Shown here: positions 8,761-29,582 of the stretch, piece after piece | Numbering within the stretch: the first letter of the stretch is position 1 | Layout of the letters: each line of letters opens with the position of its first letter | NCBI GenBank assembly: GCA_016187495.1 | Contig: JACPJP010000008.1 | Location: 1-33,689 of the forward strand | DNA from: Candidatus Woesearchaeota archaeon | Lineage (GTDB): Archaea; Nanobdellota; Nanobdellia; Woesearchaeales; GW2011-AR4 | Direction of reading: 5' to 3' | DNA length: 33,689 nucleotides | Program-made: the position numbers and the translations under genes | The notes under the pieces: generated by a model | The model's input: only the letters and a program-made list of their open reading frames with translations | Database searches by the model: none | What the model was told of the DNA's origin: nothing

Positions 8761-8846
8761 TGGGCCTGGACAGATTTGAACTGTCGACCACTCGATTTCT
8801 AAGAATCTATCAGTCGAGCATTCTAACCAGGCTGAACTACAGGCCC
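8761..8846 (-). tRNA. tRNA-Ile (GAU) with 11-nt intron
   Basis: All arms pair: acceptor GGGCCTG/CAGGCCC, D stem GTTC/GAAT, anticodon stem CTCGA/TCGAG, T stem GACAG/CTGTC with loop TTCAAAT, and discriminator A. The anticodon is GAT. The anticodon loop carries an 11-base insert after position 37 (8797-8807), GATTCTTAGAA. CTGA of the loop pairs with TTAG of the insert, leaving 3-base bulges TA^G and AA^A, which is a minimal bulge-helix-loop splice motif. The mature tRNA is 75 nt. CCA is not encoded. It lies 16 bases downstream of tRNA-Asn on the same strand. Confidence 0.93.
8797..8807 (-). other. tRNA-Ile intron at position 37/38
   Basis: This 11-base intron has its splice sites in two 3-base bulges on either side of a 4-bp helix (CTGA/TTAG, one G-U pair). 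The terminal loop is only TAGATTC, so the inner helix of a canonical bulge-helix-bulge is absent. Confidence 0.8.
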
Positions 8847-9135: not shown

Positions 9136-9381
9136 TTACCTTCTTTTCTTTTTTCTTCCGCCCCTGACCATCTTAGCCATTGAGACGTCTCCCTGCTTAT
9201 CTATGAAGTAGAGGTATCCGGATTTTTTCTTAACGCCCACTTTGGCAACAACCTGCACCTTTCCTCCTGATCTCTTTTTGCCTCGAGCCATTTTAGCCCT
9301 TGAGACGTTACCTTTCTTGTCTAAGAAGTATAGGTAACCCTTCTCTCTTTTTACCCCAACTTTTGCAACTTTTTCTGCCAT
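9136..9381 (-). CDS. 81-aa basic protein made of two tandem copies of one repeat
   Basis: The protein consists of two copies of a unit, VAKVGVK-x3-GYLYF-x-DK-x-G-x-VS-x-AKM-x-RG, covering about residues 5-34 and 45-75. A Lys/Arg/Gly linker joins them and the tail is RGGRKKKRR. Each copy looks like a short two- or three-stranded beta unit with conserved aromatic residues. The high positive charge suggests nucleic-acid binding. I recognise the repeat as a recurrent small archaeal unknown, not a family with known function. The start ATG 9381 has a good Shine-Dalgarno GAGGTGA about 6 bases upstream. A TATA box at 9450-9457 (TTTATATA on the minus strand) gives a leader of about 47 bases. Confidence 0.72.
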   Translation of the reverse strand: MAEKVAKVGVKREKGYLYFLDKKGNVSRAKMARGKKRSGGKVQVVAKVGVKKKSGYLYFIDKQGDVSMAKMVRGGRKKKRR

Positions 9382-15849: not shown

Positions 15850-16038
15850 ATGGATTTAAATTCTTACTGGATAAGGTTTAAGGGCTTTATTAATGAGTCT
15901 ATAAGGGTGCTGAAAGTAACGAGGAAGCCAAGCAAGCTCGAATTCCAGACCATAGTAAAAGCCTCAGGATTGGGCATGATTATTATAGGGCTGTTGGGAT
16001 TTGTAATAACCATGCTAAAACAGCTGCTTTTTCCCTAA
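15850..16038 (+). CDS. secE: Preprotein translocase subunit SecE (Sec61-gamma)
   Basis: The 62-aa protein has an amphipathic N-terminal helix (SYWIRFKGFINESIRVLKVTRKPSKLEFQ, of which the RKPSKLEF segment is the family hallmark). A single membrane span near the C terminus follows (GLGMIIIGLLGFVITML). It clamps the SecY channel. ATG 15850 is one base after the ftsZ stop; the in-frame TTG at 15841 overlaps ftsZ and is unlikely. The ftsZ-secE-spt5-rpl11 order is a conserved archaeal arrangement, but here secE is separated from spt5 by a 378-base noncoding stretch. Confidence 0.92.
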   Translation: MDLNSYWIRFKGFINESIRVLKVTRKPSKLEFQTIVKASGLGMIIIGLLGFVITMLKQLLFP

Positions 16039-16135
16039 AGCTTTTAAATAGTGGCTTATTTTCAATAGTCAGATAATACATTACAGTCCACAACCAATGT
16101 TTATTAAAATTTAACATGAATTCAGGATTCACAAC

Positions 16136-16404
16136 GATAATATTTATTCAATAAAAAATAATAAGAGGATTTTTTGCTAGATAAAAATTGTGAAGGCAAA
16201 AAATACTCGAACGAAGTTCGGTATCCACTGCGTGGATAATCCAATGTAGTTGTGCACAAATAGAATAGGACAAAATTTTTCCTTTGCTCAGCAAGTAAGA
16301 AAATTTTCCTATTATTAATTTTTTCATTGAAATAAATTATTGCCAGTATAAAACAAATGAGAATGCAAATAGTTGTGTACATAAGATAAAATTTTAATTA
16401 TTGA
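16136..16404 (+). repeat. Noncoding element, copy A (homologous to 27001-27286 on the other strand)
   Basis: Four blocks occur in the same order as in copy B. Block 1 is GATAATATTTATTCAATAAA through TTTTTGCT (16136-16178). Block 2 is AATGTAGTTGTGCACAA (16243-16259). Block 3 is TTTTTTCATTGAA (16319-16331). Block 4 is AATAGTTGTG within 16352-16399. Hairpins: CGAAC-gaa-GTTCG (16208-16220), TATCCAC-tgc-GTGGATA (16222-16238), and a long one from AATAGG (16264) to CCTATT (16313). There is no supported ORF. The last block contains the AT-rich TATA-like ATAAAATTTTAA (16385-16396), about 26 bases before ATG of spt5, so the element borders or supplies that promoter. The rest of 16039-16135 shows nothing recognisable. 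Confidence 0.7.
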
Positions 16405-16416
16405 AGCTAATCCAAA

Positions 16417-16902
16417 ATGGAACAGGAAGCCAATACTTCGCAAATTTATGGATTGAGGGTAACTGCCAACAGGGAAGACCAGGTAATGGACTTCATTGTA
16501 GCTAATGCTCAGAGAAAAAATCTTGAGGTTTTCGCAGTTATAAGGCCGCATGGCATGCGCGGCTACATTTTTTTAGAGGCTGGGAACAAGACAGATGCAG
16601 AGCAGGCCGCTTTCAATGTTCCTTATGCCAGGGGTATTCTGCCAAAAACAGTTGATTACTCTGAAATAGAGCATATGCTGGAGCAGGTAAAGTACGAGGT
16701 AAACATACAAAAGAATGATATTGTTGAAATCATATCAGGGCCTTTTAAGCGTGAGCAGGCTAAGATAACAAGGATAGACAAGCAGAAAGAGGAGGTCGTT
16801 GTTGAGCTTTTAGAGGCAGCAGTCCCTATACCAATGACATTGAAGCTTGATGCTGTTAAAGTTGTCAGAAGAGATACAGAAGAAAAGGAAAAGGCAGAGT
16901 AA
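16417..16902 (+). CDS. spt5: Transcription elongation factor Spt5 (NusG homologue)
   Basis: The 161-aa protein has an NGN domain (about 8-88), including YGLRVTANREDQVMDFI and VFAVIRPHGMRGYIFLEA, with the PYARGILP segment after it. A KOW domain (about 98-145) follows: NIQKNDIVEIISGPFKREQAKITRID. Family role: with Spt4 it binds the RNA polymerase clamp and closes the DNA channel, raising processivity and coupling to translation. It lies between secE and rpl11, as usual in archaea. The TATA-like run at 16385-16396 predicts a leaderless start at ATG 16417. Confidence 0.95.
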   Translation: MEQEANTSQIYGLRVTANREDQVMDFIVANAQRKNLEVFAVIRPHGMRGYIFLEAGNKTDAEQAAFNVPYARGILPKTVDYSEIEHMLEQVKYEVNIQKNDIVEIISGPFKREQAKITRIDKQKEEVVVELLEAAVPIPMTLKLDAVKVVRRDTEEKEKAE

Positions 16903-21864: not shown

Positions 21865-22842
21865 TCAAAAAACCTTATCGTTCCTCTTGTATTCTATCTT
21901 ATTATCTTCCAGCAACCCCACAATCCTCTTCTTTTCCTTCCCCAAGCCTTTCCAGTCCAGCAAAGCGAATTTCGGCTTTGGGATTATCTTTTCAATTACC
22001 TGTTTAATTAAGTTCAAGTCTAAATTCTCTAAGTTATATTTTGCGCAGATATGCCCGACAGCTAAATTGCTTTGTAGCATTGCCTTGTTTGCAATGTGGT
22101 TGTAATGGCTGCCTCCAATAACAAAGACGGGCTCATAGTCATTATTTCTTTCCATTAAATTTTTATTATTATAATTATCATTTATTTTATCATTTTTTAA
22201 TTTATTATTATTACTATTAATACTGCAATCTGTTTTATTGTTTTTTTGATTTAATGCGTCATTCTTCATTGTAGCAAAACCATCAAACTTTTCCAAAGCG
22301 CTCACCAGCGAGTTGGCAACAATAAACCCGCCATTATTATCTTTCCAATATTTTTCATTGCTTCCAAGCTCGACAAAGCAAACAGGCTTTTCCATATAAG
22401 GGCCGTGATGAGTGGCTTCCAAAGTAGCTTCATAAGGCTCTTTTGCGTTATTATCCAATTCAATGAACAATTTTTTTAATAATTCTGGGTTAGAGTAGCA
22501 TAAAACCCCATCTTTTCCGCCAAATTCAGCATTTCCGAAATTCCCTATTGCATGGCAAGTTAAAGATGCGCGATCTTCTTGCGCTCTGTGTTTAGAAATA
22601 AAAATAAAAACATCAGCGTCTATCTTCTTGTCCAAGTCGTCTGTAAAAATCAATTCAGAATTAATAGTATAGAGCCTTATTATTTCATTTGAATTACCAT
22701 TTTTATTGTTGATTGTTAATTGAAATATACTATTACGGTCAAATTGCTCGTCCAGTTTATTGAACTTGAAATTACTAATTAAATTCTCTTTAATATTTGT
22801 ACTTGCGATGTCTTTTGTTGATGAAATAATTGCAATATCCAT
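21865..22842 (-). CDS. dtdA: Archaeal D-aminoacyl-tRNA deacylase (DTD2) with Asn-rich insertion
   Basis: Conserved DTD2 blocks are present: MDIAIISSTKDIAS at the start, DVFIFISKHRAQEDRASLTCHAIGN, EATHHGPYMEKPVCFVELGS, FVIGGSHYNHIANKAML, and a C terminus with KPKFALLDWKGLG. The enzyme removes D-amino acids wrongly attached to tRNA, using the metal-dependent archaeal/plant fold. Between FDGFATM and YEPVFVIGG (about 192-235) there is an extra stretch of about 40 residues, mostly Asn, Lys and Asp, e.g. NSNNNKLKNDKINDNYNNKN. It is encoded by almost pure A/T sequence (about 22140-22265). The insert is at a loop between domains and should be tolerated. A similar insert occurs in elp3. Confidence 0.88.
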   Translation of the reverse strand: MDIAIISSTKDIASTNIKENLISNFKFNKLDEQFDRNSIFQLTINNKNGNSNEIIRLYTINSELIFTDDLDKKIDADVFIFISKHRAQEDRASLTCHAIGNFGNAEFGGKDGVLCYSNPELLKKLFIELDNNAKEPYEATLEATHHGPYMEKPVCFVELGSNEKYWKDNNGGFIVANSLVSALEKFDGFATMKNDALNQKNNKTDCSINSNNNKLKNDKINDNYNNKNLMERNNDYEPVFVIGGSHYNHIANKAMLQSNLAVGHICAKYNLENLDLNLIKQVIEKIIPKPKFALLDWKGLGKEKKRIVGLLEDNKIEYKRNDKVF

Positions 22843-26908: not shown

Positions 26909-27000
26909 TTTATTCATGGAGTGTCTAAAATAGCTTCTCGGATTAATTGCATGGAAATTAGGATGACATTTTCATTGTTTGATTGTCCATTAACTAATCG

Positions 27001-27286
27001 TCCATTAAAATTAATCTTACGATGCTCACAACTATTCGTGCTTTCATTTGTCTATTTAATCATATTTCCTTATTCAATGAAAAAACTTTGTTTTTTCTGG
27101 GTTTTCTATCGCAAACCATTAAAAAATTAAAATTAACAATGTGGAAATTTTTCTTAATGTCTTATTTATTGAAAAATTTCCAGATATGTTGATTGTGCAC
27201 AACCAACATTAGATTGTTTTTTGCATTATTGTGTCCAGTCAGCAAAAACCCCTATTATTTTTTCTTTTTATTGAATAAATATTATC
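27001..27286 (-). repeat. Noncoding element, copy B (minus strand, homologous to 16136-16404)
   Basis: Reading the minus strand, the same four blocks appear in order: GATAATATTTATTCAATAAA through TTTTTGCT (27286-27241), AATGTTGGTTGTGCACAA (27210-27193), TTTTTTCATTGAA (about 27085-27073) and ACAAATGA...AATAGTTGTG...ATTTTAAT (about 27052-27005). At the place where copy A has its long hairpin, copy B has GGAAATTTTTC/GAAAAATTTCC (27181-27171 with 27153-27143). The stem sequence differs but pairing is kept. The palindrome TTGTGCACAA is identical in both. There is no ORF. Confidence 0.7.
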
Positions 27287-27439
27287 TTTGGGAAAGATAG
27301 ATTTTTTATTGCTTTTTTATTATTAAAGTGTTTTGTGTGCTTTACTGGACTTTGTTTCGTAAATGTAAAAAGTGATAAAATACTTCATGCCATGTTGGAC
27401 TTGATGTGAACTTTCATTTTTTCGACATGCCCGTTCATT

Positions 27440-27473: not shown

Positions 27474-29582
27474 ATGGAATTAAAGCAAATCTGCCGCGAG
27501 ATTTTAGAAGAAGCTAAGAAAAATAATGTCCAGGACTTAAGAAAATTCAACCATATAAAGCTGCAAGTTCTTAGCAGATTAAACTATAGCAAGATACCAA
27601 AAAATGCCACAATTGCTTCTTTGGCTTCAGATGAAGATAGGAAGCAGTTTAAAAAAATACTGTCAATGAAGCCTGTAAGGACAATTTCCGGCGTTGCTCC
27701 GATAGCTTTAATGGCAGACCCTTACCCATGCCCTCATACAATCAAAGGCATAGGGCCATGCACCTACTGCCCCGGAGGCCCAGGAAGCGTTTTTGGCGAT
27801 GTCCCTCAAAGCTATACTGGGAAAGAGCCAAGCACGAGAAGAGCTATAAGAAACCTTTATGACCCATATCTTGGAGTCTTCAACAGGCTGGAGCATTATG
27901 TTGCAATGAATTCTGTGCCAGAGAAATGCGAGGTTATATTGCAAGGCGGTACATTTCCTTTTTACCCTAAACACTATCAGGATTACTTTGTTAAATACCT
28001 GCTCAAGGCAATGAATGATTTTTCCATGTTGTTTTACAATGAAAACGGAATGGATCTAGGCAAATTTAACAAATTTTTTGAGCTGCCTGCAGATATAGAC
28101 AATGAACAAAGAACTAGGAGTATTCAAGGAAAATTACTTTTTATCAAGAATTTGGATTTGAATGATGAAAAAATATTATGGTCCATAAACCATTTGTTTT
28201 TTAATAATAAAAATAATAATGGCCTAAAAAATGAATTAATTGCACAATGGGGAAACTTCAATGAAAAAAATTACAATGAAACAAAAAACAGCAATGAAAA
28301 TAATGATTACAATAATTTAGTTACAATAAAAAGTTATTCCAATAATAAAATTAATACGATATTTAATAATAGTCTAATTAATAATAATTTAAGTAATAAT
28401 AAAAAAATAACTAATAATTTTAAAAATGATAAATTAAAAAGTAATAATTCTAATGAAAACAATTCAAATCCAAATATTGCAGCTATGAAACGAGTTTTGG
28501 CAAAAGTCAATGAACGGAATGACCGTAATAGTTCTCTAGAGCAAATACAAAAAGAAAACGAGACTGCTAAAATAAGGTGCATTGGACTTACGATAGAGAC
28601 AAAAAGCGATTATGGTAAATTAGCGCATGGCAATCAGATGTTAAGGCTTGGATGCACGAGAATAGAGCTAGGCATTCAGAGTGTTTATGATGGGGTTTTG
28701 GAAAAAACCAACAGGGGTAATACGGTTCAAGATAACATAGACTCGATAAGAATTCTTAAGGATTTGGGCTTTAAAATAAATGCGCACTATATGCCTGGAC
28801 TTCCATTTACAACGAAAGAGATGGACAAAAAAGGATTAAGGGAATTATTTGCAAACCCAGATTACAGGCCGGATATGCTGAAGATATACCCATGTATGGT
28901 AATGCCAGGAACAAAGCTTTATGATGACTGGAAGGCTGGGAAATTTAGCCCCATGACAACAAAGGAGGCTGCCGAGTTAATCGCGGAAATGTTTTCTTAT
29001 GTCCCGGAATGGTGCAGGATTATGCGTGTTCAAAGAGATATCCCAACTTATGCGACAGCCTCTGGCGTTGACAGGACCAATTTAAGGCAGTATGTTGAAA
29101 AATTATGCAATGAAAAGGGAATAAAGCCAAGAGATATAAGGGCAAGAGAAGCAGGGTTCAATAAATTAAGGAGCGACAATATAAATTTAAAAAATTTAAG
29201 AATTAAAGTAATTGAATATGAAGCATCGCATGGAAAAGAATTTTTCATAGCAGCTGAAGATGGAAAGAATGATGTTTTATTTGGATATTGTAGGCTAAGA
29301 TTTCCATCACAATCACTAAGAGAAGAAATAACGAAAGACTCTGCCTTAATTCGCGAGCTGCATGTCTATTCATTAGCTGTTTCAATAGGAAAAAAATCAG
29401 AGGAAAGCTTCCAGCACCGCGGCATTGGTAAAAAATTGATGAAAAATGCAGAGGAAATTGTAAAAAGCAGCGGAAAAAATAAAGTAGTGGTTATATCAGG
29501 CATTGGGGCAAGGGAATATTTTGCTAAATTAGGCTACAAACATGATGGGCCTTATATGTCTAAGATGTTGAATTTAGTATAA
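27474..29582 (+). CDS. elp3: Elp3 family tRNA U34 carboxymethyltransferase (radical SAM plus acetyltransferase) with large Asn-rich insertion
   Basis: The radical-SAM cluster motif C-x9-C-x2-C (CPHTIKGIGPCTYCPGG, about 84-100) and RCIGLTIETKSDY, GCTRIELGIQSVYD and INAHYMPGLP mark the catalytic core. The GNAT domain at the C terminus includes LRELHVYSLAV, FQHRGIGKKLMKNAEE and GAREYFAKLGYKHDGPYMSK. The enzyme builds the cm5 group on wobble uridine using SAM and acetyl-CoA. Archaeal Elp3 is usually about 520-560 aa; here it is 702. The excess lies at about 205-360, between KYLLKAMNDFS and the ENETAKIRC block, and is dominated by Asn, Lys, Ser and Ile. The insert is in frame. The gene ends 9 bases inside the convergent 70-aa ORF. 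Confidence 0.93.
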   Translation: MELKQICREILEEAKKNNVQDLRKFNHIKLQVLSRLNYSKIPKNATIASLASDEDRKQFKKILSMKPVRTISGVAPIALMADPYPCPHTIKGIGPCTYCPGGPGSVFGDVPQSYTGKEPSTRRAIRNLYDPYLGVFNRLEHYVAMNSVPEKCEVILQGGTFPFYPKHYQDYFVKYLLKAMNDFSMLFYNENGMDLGKFNKFFELPADIDNEQRTRSIQGKLLFIKNLDLNDEKILWSINHLFFNNKNNNGLKNELIAQWGNFNEKNYNETKNSNENNDYNNLVTIKSYSNNKINTIFNNSLINNNLSNNKKITNNFKNDKLKSNNSNENNSNPNIAAMKRVLAKVNERNDRNSSLEQIQKENETAKIRCIGLTIETKSDYGKLAHGNQMLRLGCTRIELGIQSVYDGVLEKTNRGNTVQDNIDSIRILKDLGFKINAHYMPGLPFTTKEMDKKGLRELFANPDYRPDMLKIYPCMVMPGTKLYDDWKAGKFSPMTTKEAAELIAEMFSYVPEWCRIMRVQRDIPTYATASGVDRTNLRQYVEKLCNEKGIKPRDIRAREAGFNKLRSDNINLKNLRIKVIEYEASHGKEFFIAAEDGKNDVLFGYCRLRFPSQSLREEITKDSALIRELHVYSLAVSIGKKSEESFQHRGIGKKLMKNAEEIVKSSGKNKVVVISGIGAREYFAKLGYKHDGPYMSKMLNLV

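Follow-up and report, generated by a model that had tools for sequence, protein, structure and literature searches.

A MITE-like palindromic element between secE and spt5 in a Woesearchaeota-like archaeon, a candidate for cis-acting operon punctuation

Results

The window, a stretch of 33,689 nt from a Candidatus Woesearchaeota archaeon (contig JACPJP010000008.1), carries the codirectional genes secE (15850-16038, plus strand) and spt5 (16417-16902, plus strand), with a noncoding element, A, inserted between them in the same direction. As judged from the alignment with about 20 other copies and from empty sites in relatives, A is as a whole an imperfect palindrome spanning about 16076-16404 on the plus strand; the original prediction of an element of about 270 bases, present here and once more as copy B (inside 26917-27432), had the region right and the length too short. 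On the plus strand, A starts with an inverted-repeat box GTCCACAAC (16086-16094), the consensus of which (GTTCACAAC) is the inverse of the 3′ motif, followed by a second CACAAC box with the first conserved block, ending in TTTTTTGCT (16130-16178, from the copy alignment). This first block folds into its own hairpin, hairpin 1 (TTTTTTGC ... GCAAAAAA, 16170-16203), with a stem that covaries across genera (GCGTTTTTGC/GCAAAAACGC, GCATTTTTGC/GCAAAAATGC). Next come a nested doublet hairpin of 34 nt (ACTCGAACGAAGTTCGGTATCCACTGCGTGGATA, 16205-16238), which has an identical core in five copies and is missing from B, the palindrome TTGTGCACAA (16250-16259), recognized on copy comparison, and hairpin 2 (AATAGGACAAAATTTT ... 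AAAATTTTCCTATT, 16264-16313), which displays compensatory changes within the family. The 3′ module (TTTTTTCATTG ... ATAAGATAAAA, 16319-16392), matched by our sequence model of this module (R1), includes the 3′ motif CAAATAGTTGTGTACATAAGATAAA (16366-16390), with the ATG of spt5 26 nt further on. A coding role for A was rejected, as its 86-aa antisense ORF is disrupted in most copies.

The proposed kinship of A and B was borne out, with a local alignment score of 120 vs. 50.2 ± 7.6 (maximum 87) in 500 dinucleotide-preserving shuffles and with the shared blocks in their predicted places, comprising block 1 (AACGATAATATTTATTCAATAAAAAATAATAAGAGGATTTTTTGC), TTGTGCACAA, the hairpin and the 3′ block (ATAGTTGTG..CAT). 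The hairpin had indeed changed in sequence with its pairing kept, from AATAGGAC-AAAATTTT / AAAATTTTCCTATT in A to GGAAATTTTTC / GAAAAATTTCC in B (hairpin 2 of B, 27143-27181, minus strand). B proper (GTCCAGTAAAG ... TTTTAATGGAC, 26986-27349, minus strand) also harbors, by comparison with A, hairpin 1 (27217-27249, minus strand) and the TTGTGCACAA palindrome (27193-27202), as well as a 3′ module matched by R1 (27017-27085, minus strand). It lies within a larger unit (26917-27432, minus strand) defined by shared outer ends, TGGAGTGTCTAAAAT (26917) and GGGCATGTCGAAAAA (27432) with the consensus GGGCGTGTCTAAAAA; these outer ends also bound several other copies, and a 160-nt element (C22:4758-4917) has B-type outer ends without any A-type core. 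Composite copies of the B type carry TSD-like short repeats at their insertion points in three cases (CCATCAC, TAATGG, TATAAA). B is a composite, with an A-type element captured inside another MITE; because it sits within this second MITE, B is antisense to both of its neighbour genes, and it probably acts on no gene. The elements ending in GGGCGTGTCTAAAAA make up a separate MITE-like family of ~160-516 nt with TSD-like repeats and A-type elements as cargo (26917-27432; C22:4758-4917; C15:17079-17457; C9:40898-41150). Elsewhere in the window, ORFs at 27474-29582 (Elp3-like radical-SAM/acetyltransferase) and 21865-22842 have long asparagine-rich low-complexity insertions (NNKNNNGLKN..., NSNNNKLKNDKINDNYNNK...), and an 81-aa protein encoded at 9136-9381 (minus strand) consists of two near-identical halves (VAKVGVKREKGYLYFLDKKGNVSRAKMARG / VAKVGVKKKSGYLYFIDKQGDVSMAKMVRG).

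A and B both belong to a family that is not confined to the two copies originally described. A search of the window's genome (778 kb in 31 contigs, 67% complete; stretches around the copies were analysed) with A as query yielded 39 matching pieces in about 20-25 places, and model R1, searched against 36 members of the taxonomic family, gave 18 matches in the window's genome, 30 in G016, 17 in G009, 8 in G002 and 7 in G003, with few or none in the remaining genomes. Among 288 genomes of the order, only four had matches (the window's genome, G003, G006 and G009), all of the same family. The 3′ motif was absent from backward-sequence controls, though present in other genomes of the family, with exact matches in Candidatus Woesearchaeota NC_groundwater_302_Ag_B-0.1um_38_13 and Nanoarchaeota B4T1B8. 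On these searches, the element is restricted to a single family of Woesearchaeota-like DPANN archaea. The view of A and B as two decayed copies of one repeat is ruled out by the ~20 further copies and those in relatives; both the presence of copies in related genomes and the A-B identity above shuffled sequence speak for the original prediction. A known RNA family was likewise ruled out, as Rfam at its curated threshold gave no match to the element, its sole match in the window being a tRNA. This 86-nt tRNA (8761-8846, minus strand; Rfam 59 bits) was missed by ARAGORN and probably carries an intron. A search of the literature on Woesearchaeota repeats turned up nothing relevant, and, as far as the literature covered shows, the MITE-like palindromic family is previously undescribed.

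The family consensus is an end-to-end imperfect palindrome with 15-nt inverted ends (GTTCACAATTATTTG and its inverse GTTCACAACTATTTG, less than perfect in individual copies), terminal inverted repeats GTTCACAAC..ATTTG / CAAAT..GTTGTGAAC, a conserved 3′ motif CAAATRRTTGTGnnCATAAGATAAA and one or two covarying hairpins at its apex. In order, the 5′ part comprises the 5′ box (GTCCATTAAAA..CACAAC), the second CACAAC box, TATTCAATAAAAA, AATAATAAGG and hairpin 1, and the 3′ part TTGTGCACAA, hairpin 2 (AAAATTTTC/GAAAATTTT and variants), CCTATTATT, TTTCANTG and the 3′ motif CAAATAGTTGTGnnCATAAGATAAAA. The distance from hairpin 1 to the end of hairpin 2 is nearly constant at 120-125 nt, rising to 155-158 nt in the five copies with the 34-nt nested doublet. 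Element length ranges from 167 to 330 nt, being ~330 nt in the window's genome and ~200 nt in the genus of G009 and G016, where the central TTGTGCACAA is missing and copies have a single apex hairpin (GCGTTTTTGC/GCAAAAACGC), some with a hairpin of type 2 instead and some with none. Some copies without a hairpin or without GATAAA still precede genes. IS200/IS605-derived elements have subterminal hairpins and no terminal inverted repeats; the terminal inverted repeats of this family set it apart from them. The nested doublets represent a second repeat class, in which small hairpins are paired up with a partly kept spacer (CGGTRTCC-like) and arms that change with pairing kept (CGAACGAAGTTCG..ATCCACTGCGTGGAT in the window, CGAAAATTGAAAATTTTCGGTG..GGGAAATTTCAAAGAAATTTCC in relatives); they occur both nested in elements and elsewhere in the window's and related genomes (16205-16238; C10:49129; C15:28410; L131, L208, L218, L243, L255, L256).

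For hairpin 2, columns 118 and 145 hold A-U in 9 of 17 copies from the window's genome and U-A in the other 8, and the covariation score exceeded that of all 500 column shuffles; 97% of cells were paired, compared with only 45-76% once the partners were slid. Hairpin 1 is nearly invariant within the window's genome, and its outer pairs change on both sides across genera (pair 8: G-C 15, T-A 16, C-G 4, A-T 2; pair 9: C-G 16, A-T 11, G-C 10), with the caveat that these counts lean somewhat towards pairing because TTTGC/GCAAA served as anchors for the arms and only the best pairing was retained. Folding z-scores averaged about -2, with several copies near zero. This pattern of substitution suggests a selected fold, which may act either as RNA or as DNA. 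An RNA helix joining the two arms was rejected: the boxes are often pairable, but the whole-element alignment gave no common fold, and no clean covariation between the arms was seen by eye. Runs of at least five T on the sense strand number 2.3 per element vs. 0.5 in shuffled sequence; A-runs are even commoner, and the T-runs may merely reflect an A/T-rich palindrome.

Among the 61 copies with visible neighbours, 57 were oriented with the downstream gene (binomial 2e-13) and 50 were situated between two codirectional genes; the copies were found without regard to orientation, although many of them had trained the model. The four exceptions in orientation were B, one more antisense copy and two copies beside convergent genes. 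The end of the 3′ motif is mostly 10-25 nt upstream of the ATG of a mixed set of genes (spt5, rrp41, FttA, OapC, L18e, uS7, uL10, AGOG, lgt, genes for glucosidase-like, RNA-binding and SprT-like proteins, and others), with upstream partners that include secE, rrp4, proteasome beta, aRF1 and RNAP subunit D. The RNAP large subunit has a truncated copy between its two halves, and rpoA'' is among the core genes concerned. In one copy (L236, G009 C15:1910-2070), the 3′ motif is found in three tandem copies (CAAATnnnTTGT..ATAAGATAAAA) ahead of one gene. The idea that A ends at the TATA region of spt5 now appears doubtful: relatives whose secE-spt5 site is empty keep a TATA-like AGCTTTTAAATAG that lies upstream of A, and the terminal GATAAAA of A departs from the canonical TATA box. 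GATAAA as a TATA box for leaderless transcription was rejected as well, being in the right place in some copies of the window's genome and too near the ATG in many G009/G016 copies.

In G009 and G016, 28 of 31 located 5′ ends start with ATG, nearly all with ATGCC and most often with ATGCCAATA, in a start-codon-like context. From this ATG, a 12-codon ORF (MPIRLTNKFTTI-like) extends in 12 of 28 copies (e.g. L234, L204, L229); synonymous change in this frame was 0.29 vs. 0.10 and 0.20 in the other frames, with codon positions varying almost equally. No such 5′ ORF is present in the genus of the window. The 5′ ATG may be the relic of an ancestral start codon, part of the element end, or the start of a leader ORF; given the weak frame signal and its occurrence in 12 of 28 copies, a leader peptide is kept as a possibility only.

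The remark that A breaks a normally tight operon proved correct, since relatives that lack the element have only 37-46 nt between secE and spt5 (37-38 nt in G003, G004 and G005 of the window's genus, 46 nt in G009). The flank TTTCCCTAAAGCTTTTAAATA is kept in these empty sites and, in the window, is followed by A. The same site carries an element in G000 and G016, the latter belonging to the genus of the empty G009; in G016, an ancestral-looking ...TTAAAATG is followed by CCAATACG... up to the element end TTTTTGAAAATGGAACAA, with AAAATG on both sides of the copy, the left one aligning with the ancestral start codon. Similarly, the rrp4-rrp41 spacer is 18-34 nt in three empty genomes, and the spacer at OapC is 1-60 nt in nine genomes vs. 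225-361 nt in four. These filled and empty orthologous spacers indicate that the element enters and leaves spacers; the turnover may represent repeated gain or repeated loss, the five-protein tree being too weakly supported for counting. The A-type copies have no clear target-site duplication, no copy among those examined had a coding interior, and no transposase with matching ends was met among these copies.

Within one genome, the 3′ modules are just 62-69% identical, with no near-identical copies, so no A-type copy is recent and recent transposition is ruled out. Nine sites are shared between G009 and G016, and seven between the 15 A-type sites of the window's genome and that genus, far above chance (p < 1e-3, even when the eligible spacers are taken to number just 300). 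At sites shared by G009 and G016, the elements are 54-73% identical, compared with 47-51% in shuffled sequence and 53% at 4-fold degenerate sites of the downstream genes, and orthologous-site copies keep the 3′ motif despite saturated synonymous sites. The simplest reading would be that these are old insertions with the motif held by selection. The main alternative is that elements of one consensus were inserted independently at these shared start codons, which could still apply because same-site copies are no more alike than those at different sites (67.5% vs. 65.4% identity between G009 and G016).

Discussion

The original prediction left a choice between a new ncRNA family and a small mobile element, and our analysis, which supports it in part, has brought evidence for both. 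The terminal inverted repeats, the empty sites and the composite structure of B indicate the build of a MITE-like element. A cis-acting role for which the copies have been retained is suggested by their fixed orientation, their position and their persistence at orthologous start codons. We therefore propose, tentatively and as close to an even call, that A is a family-restricted, noncoding MITE-like palindrome retained by selection as cis-acting operon punctuation at the start-codon end of codirectional spacers. Retention itself appears well supported by the comparison of copies across genomes; as to mechanism, we infer a terminator or processing site plus a leader or promoter. The anatomy, in which a T-rich palindrome bearing a selected hairpin is followed by a fixed 3′ module just before the ATG, all in gene direction, would fit an insulating operon cassette. 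The element was inserted, in one orientation, at the start-codon end of a spacer between two codirectional genes; upon transcription of the upstream gene, we surmise, the T-rich palindrome with its hairpin(s) would lower read-through, either by terminating transcription at a U-tract or by having the transcript processed. The 3′ module would provide a leader, perhaps a promoter, for the downstream gene, which could then be expressed at its own level. Against the promoter part, the 3′ motif is not a canonical TATA box and, in many copies of G009 and G016, is too near the ATG for a leaderless start.

A purely selfish MITE is an unlikely explanation, albeit the weightiest of the rivals. Here, an absent transposase would prefer start-codon sequences (e.g. 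AAAATG) or transcribed strands, with position and orientation reflecting targeting plus purging of harmful insertions. The palindromic build with terminal inverted repeats, the turnover of filled and empty sites within a genus, the TSD-like repeats of composite copies, the ATG at most G009/G016 5′ ends and the AAAATG on either side of the G016 spt5 copy, one of them at the ancestral start codon position, are all in keeping with such an element, but it accounts poorly for the compensatory changes in the hairpins and for a motif that survives at orthologous sites with saturated synonymous sites when no copy is recent. It seems improbable to us that the element is a structured RNA leader of the attenuator or riboswitch-like kind, controlling the downstream gene through its hairpins and possibly, in one genus, through the short upstream ORF; although the hairpins covary, the mean folding z is about -2 and the 12-codon ORF with its conserved start shows most synonymous change in its own frame, the downstream genes (spt5, rrp41, FttA, OapC, uS7, lgt, AGOG and others) share no common pathway, some copies have no hairpin, the ORF is not found in the window's genus, Rfam gives no match, and the arms have neither convincing covariation nor a common whole-element fold. 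Still more improbable is a set of DNA operator sites, where a regulator bound both to the inverted GTTCACAAC / GTTGTGAAC boxes and to TTGTGCACAA would loop the DNA and so control a housekeeping regulon: the boxes are the best conserved parts and mutually inverted, but the covarying hairpins and the insertion history would go unexplained, and the central TTGTGCACAA is missing from the other genus.

A bolder form of the punctuation proposal, which we consider rather unlikely, is that a start-codon-targeted mobile element was domesticated in DPANN archaea as a portable punctuation/leader cassette, which in one genus may include a short leader ORF, and that it has rewired a common set of housekeeping genes in several genera. 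If true, archaea would possess a regulatory layer built from a transposon. Given how small and compact DPANN genomes are, one would not expect about 20-30 tight operon spacers to have gained 200-330 nt each, always at the start codon and in the direction of the gene. Should the elements set expression, they would clearly exemplify, in archaea, the conversion of mobile DNA into a regulatory layer shared by core genes (spt5, rrp41, FttA, rpoA'', ribosomal proteins); if they are purely selfish, a start-codon-targeting transposase would itself be new.

As short noncoding sequences (167-330 nt) with terminal inverted repeats, dispersed copies and filled vs. empty sites, the elements resemble prokaryotic MITEs, including the archaeal ones of Sulfolobus, Halobacterium and Haloquadratum, which are likewise short, noncoding and multicopy with inverted ends, filled and empty sites and no transposase of their own (PMC10969869). 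Unlike these, the present family is old and diverged, locked in orientation, placed at start codons inside operons and kept at orthologous sites across genera, with no parent transposon among the copies examined. Correia elements (CREE/NEMIS) of Neisseria, which supply genes with promoters and processing sites (PMC2649163; PMC10969869), are also inverted-repeat elements found mostly 5′ of genes (PMC2649163), a likeness that would be functional only if the promoter/processing reading is right; they differ in being unrelated in sequence, young and still mobile, in having a promoter at each end and in being cleaved by RNase III, whereas the present family has an archaeal host, one orientation and a putative promoter. 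REP/BIME, ERIC and BOX repeats of bacteria are palindromic, intergenic and transcribed in operons as well, but differ in size, sequence and host and show no such one-way placement at start codons. Operon-internal terminators occur widely in Methanococcus, where they control the expression of RP and RNAP genes (PMC10450193). The ioTTS of Methanococcus maripaludis (PMC10450193) are similarly T-rich and positioned between genes of RP/RNAP-type archaeal operons, and the T-rich tract on the sense strand that marks archaeal U-tract terminators is found in our family too; the ioTTS, however, are U-tracts in situ, in contrast to the dispersed, inserted repeats with hairpins described here.
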